49,552 nucleotides of DNA from Synechococcus sp. AG-679-C18 (lineage in GTDB: Bacteria; Cyanobacteriota; Cyanobacteriia; PCC-6307; Cyanobiaceae), in the NCBI GenBank assembly GCA_003210755.1, contig QCUL01000018.1, positions 1-49,552 of the forward strand, in the 5' to 3' direction. The translations under genes were made by a program, and so were the position numbers. Shown one piece after another: positions 24,738-29,629 of the stretch. The notes beneath the pieces were generated by a model. It saw only the letters and a program-made list of their open reading frames with translations. It was not told the origin of the DNA and searched no databases. Numbering within the stretch: position 1 is the stretch's first letter; each line of letters begins with the position of its first letter.

Positions 24738-25883
24738 TTAGCTTGGATAATAGAAAAAAGCTGCTCCAAAGATTGAAAACATTCCTAGAAGTAAAACCCC
24801 TTCTAGCCAATTAGATTGTGCGTCCATATTGACTAAATTTACTATTAGGACACTAAACAAGAGAGCGATGACTTCAAAAGCTGTAAAATCTAGATTCATT
24901 GGCTGGCCGATAAAGGAACCAATGATGATGAGTGCAGGGGCAATTAAAAGTGCAACAAGCAGGCTTGATCCCATTGCGAGTGAAATTGGAAGATCCATTT
25001 GGTTTTTCCATGCCCCTTTGACTGCTGGGACATATTCTGAAAACCCACCAATAATGGGAATAATGATAATTCCAGTGAATAAAGCACTGAAACCTAGCTC
25101 TTCGGTAGCGGGCTCAAGAAAATGGACAAAGCTTTCTGACTGATAAGCCAGAAGGGCAGTGCTTATGATTAATTGAACGATCCAAGGTGTTAAATTAGTA
25201 GGCTCTTTTGTTTCAGAAGGTGAAATTGTTTCATCTTCTTTAAGGATATGAGGATCAAAAAGATGGCTATGTGTTGCTAGGGAAAAGATGAGCGTCATGA
25301 AATAAATGATCACTAGGATGACCGCCACTGTCATCGAGAGCCCATGAATCGCAATTGGATCATCGATGCCAGATGTGCTGATGAGAGATGCCGGTAGTGC
25401 CATCGCCATGACAGCTAAGGTCATCGCAGCACCATTGGTACGAACCATGGTGGCTTGAAAGCTTTGTTCGCTATATCTCAGGCCTCCAACAAGCATTGCG
25501 ACGCCTGTAACAAGCAGAAGATCAGATAAGATCGCGCCAGTAATACTTGCTTTGACAACATCAATCAGGCCAAGCCGCAGTGCTGACAAAGCAATAATAA
25601 ATTCAGCACAATTACCGAAGACTGCTGTGCAGATTGCTCCGATTGTTGGACCACTATGTTCTGAGATTTCTTCTGTAGCGTCGCTGAGTAAAAGAGCGAT
25701 CGGAATGATTCCAGCTGCTGAAAAAATAAAACAAACAATCGTGGGCCAGCCCTGACTGGCGGCTACTTGCGTCAGCAGAAGCATGATGATGGCTGGAATC
25801 AACTTCCAGCGACCAGATTGCACAAATGAATGATGTGAATCTGATGCCTTCCTCTTTTCAGATGTGATGTTGTCTGTCAGCAT
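24738..25883 (-). CDS. Ca2+/H+ antiporter, CAX family
   Basis: 381 residues, about eleven membrane helices in two halves separated by an acidic loop (LKEDETISPSETKE). The first alpha repeat contains the family motif FGNCAEFIIALSAL with its key Glu. The second repeat reads IIGGFSEYVPAVKGAW, where GN-AEH is usual, so it is a divergent version that keeps the Glu. The family exchanges Ca2+ or other cations for protons across the inner membrane. Function in cation efflux is likely; the specific ion is inferred. Confidence 0.88.
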   Translation of the reverse strand: MLTDNITSEKRKASDSHHSFVQSGRWKLIPAIIMLLLTQVAASQGWPTIVCFIFSAAGIIPIALLLSDATEEISEHSGPTIGAICTAVFGNCAEFIIALSALRLGLIDVVKASITGAILSDLLLVTGVAMLVGGLRYSEQSFQATMVRTNGAAMTLAVMAMALPASLISTSGIDDPIAIHGLSMTVAVILVIIYFMTLIFSLATHSHLFDPHILKEDETISPSETKEPTNLTPWIVQLIISTALLAYQSESFVHFLEPATEELGFSALFTGIIIIPIIGGFSEYVPAVKGAWKNQMDLPISLAMGSSLLVALLIAPALIIIGSFIGQPMNLDFTAFEVIALLFSVLIVNLVNMDAQSNWLEGVLLLGMFSIFGAAFFYYPS

Positions 25884-25941: not shown

Positions 25942-27150
25942 TTATGGTTCCCATTGTTGAGCCCCGAAAAAGGTGAGTTCAACATAATCACTTGCTTGCT
26001 GTTTGTTGGAAGAGAAGTCAAGCTTGAATCCCCCTAAGTCTACTTTTTGAATCGATTTTAGGGTTGTGATTAGCTTTTCTCTGGTCAGTGGACCCGGGAC
26101 TCGCTTTAAGCCTTCTGTCAATAATCTGGCAGCCATAAATCCTTCTAGGCTTGTGAAGCCAAACCGTGCGGAAGGGTTGTTGACGCGCATGAGTCGTTGA
26201 TAGTCTGCGACAACCGGAATCCAGCGATCCCATGGAAATGGAACAACTTGACTGACGCCAATGCCATTGGCTTGCCCCACAGGAAGAGAATTCTCGAGAG
26301 CCCTGGTGCCAACAAAAGAGACGTTCATAATCCGAGCTTTAATATTTTGTTGCAGCAAGGCCTTACTCAGTGCTGCTGAACTTACATAGGTGGAAATAAT
26401 AATAACGGCATTTGGCTGAGCCTTCTCAAGAACTCTTAATGCGGGGTTGATTTGCGCAGAATTCCTTTGAACTGTTGCTATTGCTACAGGCTTAAGACCA
26501 TGTTGTTTTAGAGCTGCTTCGGCTGAACGTAGACCATCTTTCCCGAAAGCATCATCTTGATAGATGACAGCAATTTTTTGACGGGCACCACGTATAAGGC
26601 TATTAACGATTTTGTCGATTTCCATTCTGTAGCTAGCTCTTAGATTCACTACCATTTTGAGATCGTTTTTACGCAGAAGAGACGCGCCAGTTAGAGGAGC
26701 AATAAGTGGAACTTTTTTCTTTTCAATTAAAGGGAGTATTTCCTTCGTTGTTGGAGTCCCTACATATCCAAATAATGCTAATAAATTTGGTTTTGCAAGA
26801 AGAGCCTTTGTATTCGTAACAGTCAGGTCTGGTTCGTATTGATCATCCAGGCTGATTAATTTTATTTTTCTCCCTTTAATGCCTCCTTCTCGATTGACTT
26901 CGTCAAACCATGCATTGGCTCCAGCTCGATATTTTTGCCCTATTTGAGCGGATGGCCCACTGAGTGGAAGGGATTGACCAAGAAGGATATTATTCTTATT
27001 TTCGAATGGTGTACGCGCATTTTGCTGTTGAGCGGTAGCTGGCATTACCGCTAAAATGATTCCAAAGGCGATGGATGTATTGCTTGGAATTAATTTGCGC
27101 ATGCGCTTATATAATGAACTCATAATTTGATTAGGTACTTTCGTTTTCAT
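25942..27150 (-). CDS. LivJ-like periplasmic binding protein (type I)
   Basis: Up to 402 residues. The signal-peptide-like segment MRKLIPSNTSIAFGIILAVM begins at internal Met17 (27100-27102), so the true start may be there or at Met10 rather than at 27150. The mature part follows branched-chain amino acid/amide binding proteins: ILLGQSLPLSGPSAQIGQ, GGIKGRKIKLISLDDQYEP, LFGYVGTPTTKEILPLIE, IAVIYQDDAFGKDG, FGFTSLEGFMAARLL. No ABC permease or ATPase is adjacent. Its neighbour is a ligand-gated ion channel homologue, with overlapping start codons (CATG at 27148-27151). Confidence 0.85.
   Translation of the reverse strand: MKTKVPNQIMSSLYKRMRKLIPSNTSIAFGIILAVMPATAQQQNARTPFENKNNILLGQSLPLSGPSAQIGQKYRAGANAWFDEVNREGGIKGRKIKLISLDDQYEPDLTVTNTKALLAKPNLLALFGYVGTPTTKEILPLIEKKKVPLIAPLTGASLLRKNDLKMVVNLRASYRMEIDKIVNSLIRGARQKIAVIYQDDAFGKDGLRSAEAALKQHGLKPVAIATVQRNSAQINPALRVLEKAQPNAVIIISTYVSSAALSKALLQQNIKARIMNVSFVGTRALENSLPVGQANGIGVSQVVPFPWDRWIPVVADYQRLMRVNNPSARFGFTSLEGFMAARLLTEGLKRVPGPLTREKLITTLKSIQKVDLGGFKLDFSSNKQQASDYVELTFFGAQQWEP
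27110..27115 (+). promoter_or_regulatory. Candidate -10 box for the channel gene
   Basis: TATAAT about 33 bases upstream of the channel start codon, with an imperfect TTGGAA some 20 bases before it. It would lie inside the binding-protein gene unless that gene starts at 27102. Confidence 0.3.
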
Positions 27151-28387
27151 GACGAAGATTCGACGACGGAGGAAATGGAATTTCTTAGCAATCGCGTCAG
27201 TCTTGCTGGCAGCTCTGCTTCTGATTGTTGGAATAACAAGTTTAGATGTGGATCAAGTGCCGGGTCGTGATTCCTTGCGCCTTTCTTCAGCTTCTCGCGC
27301 TTTAAATACGTCTTTGGACCGTTTGCCTCGTGATGGCTGGAGCTCACAAAGAGGTGAGTCTCTGAGTGGTAGTGAAATCCGGGCAGATCTTGATGCTTTG
27401 GATAATGCTAAGTACCACGTGAAACTTGGGATGTATTCCAATAGTACCTATGATCTTGATCTAAGTGTTCCCAGCTTTTCGTCTAGTGGATATGTTTGGT
27501 TACGGTGGGAGCAGCCGCTTCAGGATTATTTAGAGGCAAATGATAATTCCTTAGAAGAACATATTCTGCTTTTAAATGCTCTTTTGTCTGATGCGGAACC
27601 CGTTTTGCATCCTGTTCAGGATAAGCCTGCAATTTTGTCTGATGGTACTTACTATCAGCTCTATACGTATGTGGGTCGATTTTTTATTGATAAAACAAGC
27701 TTCAGGAGCTTCCCCTTCCTCACGATTGGCCTGCCAATTGCTATTGAGGCAGATGATGTTGAGGGTGGTCTTGGTTACTCGAGCCTTCGTTTTGAGCCCG
27801 ATATTCGTAATAGTGGGATGGGATTATATGCTGGAACTGGAATCATTGGTTGGTTGAATCGTGGTTGGTCAATTGCTGAATATCGTCATAACTATGCGAC
27901 GAACTTTGGCTTGGGTGGATTGGATAGAGATTATAGTTTAATTGTTTATGATATTACATTTGGTACTTCCGCTTGGTCAGCATTCTGGCGCTTGATGTTA
28001 CCTCTTCTTGTTGTGATGGTGATGGTGCTACTTGTGTTTAAGATCCGTCCCGATGAACAAGATGCTCGGGCAGGAATTCCTGTAACTGTCTTGTTAACCT
28101 TGGTATTTTTGCAGCAGGTGTATCGAGGTGAGCTCCCTGATCTCCCCTTCCTTACATTCTTAGATCAGGTCTATGTGATTGCTTATGTCATCACATTGTT
28201 TGCGTTCATCTTGTTGGTCTGGATTGGACGCCGCTATGCTGATATGGAAAATATGCCTCTAGGGGAAAGTCGAGACAAGCTTTCCCATCGGCTTGAAACT
28301 CTTGATGAGGTTTGGCCTCTCATGATGGTGTTATTTTGTTCGATTGCAGTGTTTACTGCCTGGTATCTGATTCCCTCAGGTACCTGA
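27149..28387 (+). CDS. Cys-loop-type pentameric ligand-gated ion channel homologue
   Basis: 412 residues. After an N-terminal hydrophobic segment (11-30) comes a beta-rich extracellular domain of about 240 residues, then four membrane helices: M1 280-298, M2 306-325 (GIPVTVLLTLVFLQQ), M3 337-360 and M4 389-408. Hallmarks of the family are GYVWLRWEQP in the extracellular domain, the Cys-loop equivalent DKTSFRSFPFLTIGLPIAIE (181-200, FPF without the cysteines, as in bacterial members), and M2 close to M3 with a short LPDLPFLTFLDQ linker as in GLIC. Probably an inner-membrane ion channel with its sensor in the periplasm. It is divergently paired with a binding protein, which may present its ligand. 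Ion selectivity cannot be read. Confidence 0.75.
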   Translation: MTKIRRRRKWNFLAIASVLLAALLLIVGITSLDVDQVPGRDSLRLSSASRALNTSLDRLPRDGWSSQRGESLSGSEIRADLDALDNAKYHVKLGMYSNSTYDLDLSVPSFSSSGYVWLRWEQPLQDYLEANDNSLEEHILLLNALLSDAEPVLHPVQDKPAILSDGTYYQLYTYVGRFFIDKTSFRSFPFLTIGLPIAIEADDVEGGLGYSSLRFEPDIRNSGMGLYAGTGIIGWLNRGWSIAEYRHNYATNFGLGGLDRDYSLIVYDITFGTSAWSAFWRLMLPLLVVMVMVLLVFKIRPDEQDARAGIPVTVLLTLVFLQQVYRGELPDLPFLTFLDQVYVIAYVITLFAFILLVWIGRRYADMENMPLGESRDKLSHRLETLDEVWPLMMVLFCSIAVFTAWYLIPSGT

Positions 28388-29629
28388 AGAGGCGGTCGTT
28401 GTGAGTTCTCTAAGAGCATTGATTAGTTGAGAAAGCTCTTGTTCTTCAGTGGTGATATGGGTACAGGCTCTTAGACATATTGGCTCTTCCAGATTGCGGA
28501 TCCAGATTCCCTTGCTTCCGAGGATTTCTACAATTTCGGCGGTGCTTCGCGTGCTCTCGCTACTCAGTTTGAAACTAACTAAGCCTGCAGGAGGTTCTCC
28601 TGCAAGCAATGGAGTGGTGCCTGGAAGCTCATTGAGTTGTCTCCACAGTTGATTGCTTAAGCGTTGGATTGTCTGCAGTCGCTCTTCAGCCCTGCCCTCG
28701 TCCGCTAATAAATTTAAGGATTGCCGCAGCCCTGCCATCAGCGGCACACAGCTTGTTGCTATTTCAAAGCGACGGCTGTCGTGGTGGAAAGGATCCGGAT
28801 CATTCAGGATTGCGCGCGTTTCATCGCGAAGGCTTCGCCAGCCGATCATGGTTGGATTGGCTTCATTCAGGATGCGATCTGATAACGCCACTCCTCCAAG
28901 TCCTTCGGGTCCGCAGGCCCATTTGTGTCCAGTGAAGGCATAGATGTCAGCGGCTTGTGCTGCCTCTTTCACAGGGATCTGACCCATGGTTTGCGCTGCA
29001 TCCACGAGCAGATAAGGATGCTGAGGATGGTCACGAAGATGATCTGCAACAGCGGCGATAGGCATGAGTTGCCCTGTATTCCAAAGCAGATGGGAGAGCA
29101 CCACCAATTTCGTGCGGGGCTGGAGTGATCGATCAAGAGCCCTGATCACGTTTGCGTCCGTGTCGCTTTGTTCTTCACAGCCTCGTCTGAGCTCTTGCAC
29201 AGGGAGGTTGTCGATGGCCAGTTGTTCTCGCCTGGCTAATTCATGACAAGCGGCGACCACCCCTGGGTGCTCGCAATCACTAATCAGGATGCGATCACCA
29301 GCTTTGAAGGGAAGTCCCCAAAGAGGAAGCACGCATCCGCTGGTGACATTTTCGCTGAGTGCTAGGCGATGGGGAGCTACACCGCAAAGGCGGGCTAATA
29401 ATCCACGGGTGTGATTTGTTTCGCTACTGATGAAGGGCCACACGTCTGTGGTGAAAGGTCCTAATTCCTGGATGCGATGCCAGCTTTTGACCATGGCCTC
29501 TAAAGAAGGCGTTGGTAGCGGTCCCTGGCCGCCGAAATTGAAGTAGGTCTTGTTGGCCAGTGCTGGGCAATAATCTTTGAATGACACAAAAATGTTAACG
29601 AAGGGCTTCTGCTTTTTGACTTTATTCAA
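28376..29629 (-). CDS. Class V aminotransferase-fold enzyme, cysteine/cystine lyase-like
   Basis: 417 residues; the first 15 are not family-like, and a GTG at FVSFKDYCPAL may be the true start. Landmarks are NFGGQGPLPTPSLEAM, NVTSGCVLPLWGLPF, DCEHPGVVAACHEL, LVDAAQTMGQIPV (PLP-binding Asp) and YAFTGHKWACGPEGLGGVA (PLP lysine). This pattern fits SufS-like enzymes and especially the cyanobacterial L-cysteine/cystine C-S lyase (C-DES) group, which releases sulfane sulfur for Fe-S assembly. An Nfu-type scaffold lies nearby. The 3' end overlaps the channel gene by 12 bases, convergently. Confidence 0.8.
   Translation of the reverse strand: MNKVKKQKPFVNIFVSFKDYCPALANKTYFNFGGQGPLPTPSLEAMVKSWHRIQELGPFTTDVWPFISSETNHTRGLLARLCGVAPHRLALSENVTSGCVLPLWGLPFKAGDRILISDCEHPGVVAACHELARREQLAIDNLPVQELRRGCEEQSDTDANVIRALDRSLQPRTKLVVLSHLLWNTGQLMPIAAVADHLRDHPQHPYLLVDAAQTMGQIPVKEAAQAADIYAFTGHKWACGPEGLGGVALSDRILNEANPTMIGWRSLRDETRAILNDPDPFHHDSRRFEIATSCVPLMAGLRQSLNLLADEGRAEERLQTIQRLSNQLWRQLNELPGTTPLLAGEPPAGLVSFKLSSESTRSTAEIVEILGSKGIWIRNLEEPICLRACTHITTEEQELSQLINALRELTTTASSGT

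Follow-up and report, generated by a model that had tools for sequence, protein, structure and literature searches.

A pentameric ligand-gated ion channel gene paired head-to-head with a periplasmic binding protein gene in marine Synechococcus: a possible two-gene receptor

Little is known of the natural ligands of bacterial pentameric ligand-gated ion channels (pLGICs, or Pro-loop receptors) or of their physiological roles. GLIC from Gloeobacter and ELIC from Erwinia function without a periplasmic binding protein (PBP). In the passages cited here, Tasneem et al. (2004) described type I PBP (PBP-I) domains fused to pLGICs in Magnetospirillum and Bradyrhizobium as well as stand-alone PBP-II genes beside pLGICs, proposed chemoreceptors and a cooperation between PBP-II and channel, and assigned cyanobacterial pLGICs a simple architecture (PMC549065). 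The relevant passages of Jaiteh et al. (2016) place Prochlorococcus and Synechococcus among the holders of pLGICs and treat pLGIC domain associations as known at the genome level only (PMC4795631). A third point of comparison is DeCLIC, which as described in excerpt resembles the system reported here in having a periplasmic accessory module with a pLGIC, though its jelly-roll domains are fused in cis whereas the PBP studied here is supplied in trans (PMC9897478). Within the open-licence PubMed Central literature, we found no prior description of a PBP-channel pairing in picocyanobacteria.

Here we analyzed a 49,552-nucleotide stretch of DNA from Synechococcus sp. AG-679-C18 (contig QCUL01000018.1; hereafter the window), in which the channel gene (27149..28387, plus strand) encodes a pLGIC subunit of 412 residues and the PBP gene (25942..27150, minus strand) a type I PBP of 402 residues with the LivJ-like Peripla_BP_6 fold. 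Like the Alphaproteobacterial fusions, this locus brings a pLGIC together with a type I PBP, but here a picocyanobacterium exports the PBP-I as a protein of its own from a head-to-head gene, so that two genes on opposite strands replace the single polypeptide outlined in those passages (PMC549065). On the same strand, 58 bp downstream of the PBP gene, lies a gene for a CAX Ca2+/H+ exchanger (24738..25883, minus; TIGR00378 326.5 bits, cut-off 211.15). On the other side, the 3′ ends of the channel gene and of a convergent class V aminotransferase gene (28376-29629, minus) overlap by 12 bp (28376-28387).

The ATG start codons of the PBP and channel genes have CATG in common (27148..27151), which bears out in the sequence the overlapping divergent starts proposed in an earlier note on this DNA. 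With channel starts assigned by rule as the nearest ATG no more than 15 codons before a conserved WN, the shared CATG recurs in 23 of the 49 divergent pairs examined, spread over six genera; since CATG is palindromic, sharing by chance would be expected about once in 12 when the frames agree, a rough estimate in which relatedness is uncounted. In five loci the ATG of the shared CATG is the sole PBP start codon within the stretch examined, while among the 14 pairs with a GTG channel start, four (L085, L086, L057 and L087) have a PBP start that is preceded by AGGAGG and lies 16 nt away. Because the starts overlap, the 5′ signals of each gene must lie in or beside the other gene, and expression of the PBP and the channel is therefore probably coupled. 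A promoter scan gave no support, finding 4 promoter-like sites where shuffled sequence predicts 5.2. Such coupling could itself be the reason that the genes stay together. A divergent pair may persist for co-regulation alone, in which case both proteins would serve the same pathway without contact, the PBP acting elsewhere and the channel being gated by protons, amines or calcium on its own, as the self-sufficiency of GLIC and ELIC would allow. We consider this explanation unlikely but worth carrying forward, and return to it below with the gene orders seen in other channel clades.

The channel itself shows the β-sandwich extracellular domain and M1–M4 helices of the pLGIC/Pro-loop superfamily by fold match and profile, in a model of moderate confidence (pLDDT 71.8, pTM 0.62). 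A clear pentameric-channel fold match was the test that the earlier note had set in advance for its Cys-loop-family assignment, which it passed. At the N-terminus, residues 8-37 (27170..27259, plus) form a hydrophobic segment (hydropathy up to 2.78; model helix 3-30) that may be an uncleaved anchor, and no A-x-A motif was seen in it by eye. The beta-rich, periplasmic extracellular domain follows at residues 85-273 (27401..27967, plus; model and fold match). Within it, the motif FRSFPF at residues 185-190 (27701..27718, plus) supplies the Cys-loop equivalent that had been read as FPF, with F185, P189 and F190 invariant in 75/75 aligned sequences; P189 is the conserved proline of the β6-β7 loop, the most conserved pLGIC position according to the portion of Jaiteh et al. 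consulted (PMC4795631). The cysteine pair of animal Cys-loop receptors is missing, as there is no Cys around residues 170-200. In the membrane domain, M1 (27971..28042, plus) carries Pro285, present in 75/75, and the M2 pore helix (28058..28132, plus) has conserved D-2′, R0′, T6′, L9′, F13′ and Q15′ in the 75-sequence alignment, where an acidic -2′, R0′, T6′ and L9′ each occur in 75/75, so that the hydrophobic 9′ and polar 6′ residues required for pLGIC membership are both present. M3 (28157..28249, plus) and M4 (28265..28366, plus) were located from the model.

GLIC and ELIC are alike with the window channel in the extracellular and four-helix fold and in the Pro-loop, and ELIC also in R0′, T6′, L9′ and an LPxLPYxT-type M2-M3 linker, the alignment with ELIC being gapless from R0′ through M2-M3. 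Identity to either is only 15–19%, however, and the window channel differs from both in residues 1-84, a hydrophobic N-terminal segment plus linker that falls outside the match, and in its conserved PBP gene partner. The Pfam model Neur_chan_memb scores the channel at 19.7 bits, under the gathering threshold of 28.1, and at E 0.01 matches only 27/75 of its relatives; the shortfall is a matter of detection threshold and not a structural feature. One could still imagine that the protein conducts no ions and is a signalling receptor whose pLGIC fold serves only to relay the state of the PBP across the membrane, given that the Asp after the Pro-loop PF, found in ELIC and in most members of a third channel clade described below (clade C), is missing in the window's own clade (clade A). 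This is very improbable, as the pore positions -2′, 0′, 6′, 9′, 13′ and 15′ are invariant or nearly so in the 75 sequences, and dN/dS for the channel is ∼0.05 in three comparisons (0.05-0.08 over both genes), values that with saturated dS, and no dS from L039, are a rough sign of purifying selection only. The channel is probably cation-selective.

The PBP begins with a signal peptide with a long n-region (residues 1-40; 27031..27150, minus), for which we read an ATA/QQ cleavage site by eye, and no Cys lipobox was seen in the window's copy. Profile score and fold both assign the protein to Peripla_BP_6, and an alignment of 36 close relatives shows no variation at its residues G131-T134 (GTPT) and V277-G281. 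In agreement with the LivJ-like identity first suggested for it, its best sequence and fold relatives are LivJ-type PBPs, among them 4kv7 and 3lop, which share the fold and are ∼30% identical to it along most of its mature chain; our search found no relevant paper on the ligand of either. Where a database name is given, it is ABC transporter substrate-binding protein. That name raises the prospect that the PBP does nothing more unusual than bind amino acids or amides for an ABC importer in trans, and a single pair of LIV-type permeases was indeed found in the genome (93.67% complete). These permeases, however, adjoin a PBP of their own (G000:C20), an UrtA-like protein 47% identical to, and a different copy from, the UrtA-like PBP of L109 discussed below. 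In the window, the genes next to the PBP include no ABC permease or ATPase, and the locus does not qualify as that of a LIV-type ABC importer; nor does one occur among the few annotated neighbours in the window, in L041 and in the Bestrophin operons considered below, where most neighbours are unannotated. The absence of an ABC partner noticed at the outset has thus held up, and since the PBP also tracks the channel across genomes (below), service to an importer in trans appears quite unlikely.

The pairing was then expected, if meaningful, to be conserved side by side in other picocyanobacteria, and it is; the other refuting outcome named in the earlier note, homologues that never adjoin a binding-protein gene, did not occur. 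Bacterial channels of this family had been thought few, which does not describe the Cyanobiaceae: channel relatives were found in 124 of the 400 family genomes and in 19 of 59 genera, all clades pooled. In a tree of 89 channels, from which channels under 280 residues were left out, clade A comprises 54 rows, of which L077, truncated at a contig end, was excluded; of the 53 channels that could be evaluated, 49, from 11 genera, have a divergent PBP gene. This is the stand-alone arrangement of PBP and channel genes outlined for PBP-II in the passages of Tasneem et al., with a type I PBP in its place (PMC549065). The 49 include L034, a contig labelled as a Phycisphaerae MAG that has Synechococcus gene order and a channel 87% identical to that of the window, and is probably misbinned; they do not include L065:10248, which is divergent with a Peripla_BP_6 PBP and falls outside clade A in the tree. 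In L086 and L094, two divergent pairs of different subclades share one contig, ∼4 kb apart.

Four clade A channels have no PBP (L058, L060, L083 and L093), and the first three form one clade. L093 has kept the gene found after the PBP in the sister locus L092, which fits a local loss of the PBP. Beside two of these channels are proteins 49% identical over 165 residues, L058:8807-9682 (minus) and L083:7010-7639 (plus), which differ in orientation and of which the L058 copy has no Pfam match. Across ∼400 genomes (entered as 401), at an identity cut that we set ourselves, both genes occur together in 50, the channel only in 5 and the PBP only in 1, counts for which the printed test ignores relatedness.

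Since clade A pairs may share one ancestral arrangement, the 49 loci are not independent, and the two genes might be neighbours by descent with no functional tie. The flanks, however, change between genera while the pair stays, in at least six gene contexts by our own reading, and the genes have also disappeared together. In G123, only the C-terminal ends of both (34 residues of the PBP and 28 of the channel) are left between the CAX and aminotransferase genes, and in G289 a 20-residue channel end (E 0.004) is left, with no PBP match in the ∼185 bases between it and CAX (remnants at L207:6758-6957 and L208:3181-3240). Neither genome has a PBP match elsewhere at E 1e-10, and both genes of the pair are gone in G123 and G289. 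Together with the pairing of other channel clades with PBPs in other orientations, this leaves passive linkage already disfavoured, and we regard it as having very little chance of being correct. The pair had no match among 50,697 phage records, so we saw no sign of phage carriage in that set.

The CAX exchanger was considered as an obligatory third part of the system and rejected: at ≥70% identity it occurs in 9/31 genomes of the window's genus, flanking the PBP-channel pair in seven, yet it did not turn up in the loci fetched from other genera, and it persists in G123 and G289, where the pair has been lost. It is a local companion of the pair in the window's genus only. A link to an Orn/Lys/Arg decarboxylase-like gene (tested in L041 only) was also set aside, since its relatives lie close to the pair at many loci in other genera and are absent from the window.

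If coupled expression from overlapping starts were all that held the pair together, PBP genes should not adjoin channels where a shared start region is absent, and it is here that the other clades are informative. In a second channel clade of the same genus (clade B; 38–40% identity to the window channel), the channel is convergent with a PBP (40–42% identity) in 6/6 tree loci; the count is 6 and not 7 as the PBP of the L066 row, which was dropped, belongs to a neighbouring clade A pair. G317 (L040) holds a second, broken clade-B-like channel in two pieces near a contig end, with no Peripla_BP_6 neighbour seen. In the third clade of the genus, clade C (27–30% identity to the window channel), the channel is in tandem with an UrtA-like PBP, at L109:5989-8381 (minus) and further in L039, L040, L110, L111, L112, L130, L132, L133 and L211. 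At ≥67% identity this PBP occurs in 10/31 genomes of the genus, and a clade C channel is its tandem neighbour in 10/10, with the caveat that the UrtA-like profile was built from six of the loci later tested with it. Only the L109 copy was compared with Pfam and NCBIfam, and it scores 440.8 bits against TIGR03407, below the cut-off of 492.75. In another genus, L181 has a relative of clade C that is convergent with an UrtA-like PBP. Divergent, convergent and tandem cases together mean that the link between PBP and channel recurs in all three orders, and its pairing is conserved in three channel clades. Two proteins named as Pseudomonadales proteins (P0212 and P0225) are ∼50% identical to the L109 channel, so clade C reaches beyond cyanobacteria.

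These UrtA-like genes recall the orphan urtA genes of marine Synechococcus, which the part of a 2021 review of picocyanobacterial binding proteins consulted gives as having unresolved partners and likewise no ABC subunits (PMC8786288). That text places them near phage genes, whereas the UrtA-like genes of the window's genus stand in tandem with a clade C pLGIC, 10/10 (PMC8786288). Clade C tandems may explain some orphan urtA genes, provided that the two sets of genes are the same.

Outside these clades the PBP is mostly missing, which fits persistence for shared expression and weighs against a two-part receptor. Among 34 further family channel loci from other genera outside clades A and B (L065:3803, L095, L104-L107, L113, L180-L186 and L187-L206), one has a PBP, the UrtA-like one of L181; this survey used two PBP profiles only, included four loci with <1 kb on one side (L191, L195, L197 and L204), and drew mostly on channels that are not in the tree. 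With PBPs of the tested kinds, no neighbour was found for the distant L103 and L108 of the window's genus or for the second L093 channel, and none adjoins any of 13 cyanobacterial channel loci from outside the family (L167-L179). A related, decarboxylase-linked channel clade (10 rows, other genera) likewise has no PBP of its own, and a decarboxylase is present in 8/10 of its rows. In this cluster (L066:2254-7935, minus; also L071, L072, L074, L079, L096, L100 and L102), the channel gene comes last, and the other members are histidine decarboxylase, a protein that has no Pfam match and looks on inspection like a Cache-type sensor anchored in the membrane, and an MFS transporter, for which L096 has no call. 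The cluster places a biogenic-amine enzyme beside a receptor-channel. The L066 histidine decarboxylase, the sole copy tested, scores 393.3 bits against NF002748 (cut-off 305).

A further point against shared expression as the whole explanation comes from the PBP family itself, which also precedes another presumed channel. We fetched 13 PBP-family relatives with no pLGIC in view (L118-L126, L128 and L212-L214), leaving out matches near 22–27% identity, which we took as other PBPs. In 11/13 the next gene after the PBP is Bestrophin-like: four were tested with Pfam and match PF14023 (L118, L120, L123 and L125), and seven were assigned by sequence similarity (L119, L121, L122, L124, L126, L212 and L213); Bestrophin-like is the PF14023 family name, and its being a channel is presumed here. 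The PBP is whole in eight of these loci (L118-L125), in pieces in L126 and L212, and cut by the contig end in L213. The two exceptions are L128, whose contig breaks off at the expected channel position, and L214, which is a remnant of 78 residues. PBP_like_2 genes or their relatives follow in L118, L119, L122-L125, L212 and L213, and eight of the Bestrophin-link genomes also have a pLGIC pair (G231, G195, G106, G143, G051, G279, G203 and G087). Resolution at the base of the PBP tree is poor, and the tree therefore gives no order in time for the pLGIC and Bestrophin links. The occurrence of one PBP family with two unrelated presumed channels gives, among the evidence from gene context, the strongest hint that the family serves channels.

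We therefore return to the reading of the pair as a two-gene receptor, in which the soluble PBP would sense a ligand for a probably cation-selective channel by a contact and gating that are presumed, and to which we assign a probability of roughly 0.6, with the four PBP-less clade A channels, the 1/34 and 0/13 counts at other loci, and the decarboxylase-linked clade weighed against it. On this reading the channel subunits would assemble as a homopentamer of the Pro-loop receptor type, set in the inner membrane with the extracellular domain in the periplasm, and the PBP, exported to the same compartment, would catch a small solute, amino-acid-like to judge by its fold. Once loaded, the PBP would modulate or open the channel, either by docking on the extracellular domain or by handing over its ligand. 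The channel's pentameric state, conductance, ion selectivity, ligand, contact with the PBP and direction of regulation are all points that we infer. In the window's genus, a CAX exchanger beside the pair would fit calcium entry followed by extrusion, which is speculation. The conserved pairing across relatives suggests that the PBP is a detachable sensor of the channel, in support of the two-part receptor put forward in the earlier note. The principle was already predicted; within the open-licence literature, the separate PBP-I partner, the orientations, the joint loss and the Bestrophin link appear to be new.

More tentatively, picocyanobacteria might hold a general class of binding-protein-coupled ion channels, with detachable type I PBPs serving unrelated channels, both pLGICs of three clades and Bestrophin-like proteins, as interchangeable ligand sensors, and with ABC-type PBPs recruited several times as soluble receptors in ion signalling. 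The host organisms are abundant ocean phototrophs, and in this marine cyanobacterium a relative of the ion channels of animal nerve receptors is encoded head-to-head with a soluble nutrient-binding protein. Animal NMDA-type receptors hold ligand sensor and channel in one chain, and the pair may show a two-piece form of this design. The pairing also hints at a site of action for some of the orphan PBPs in marine Synechococcus, left unresolved in the review text cited (PMC8786288). Above all, a conserved soluble partner would offer a direct route to the ligand of the channel, through what the PBP binds.
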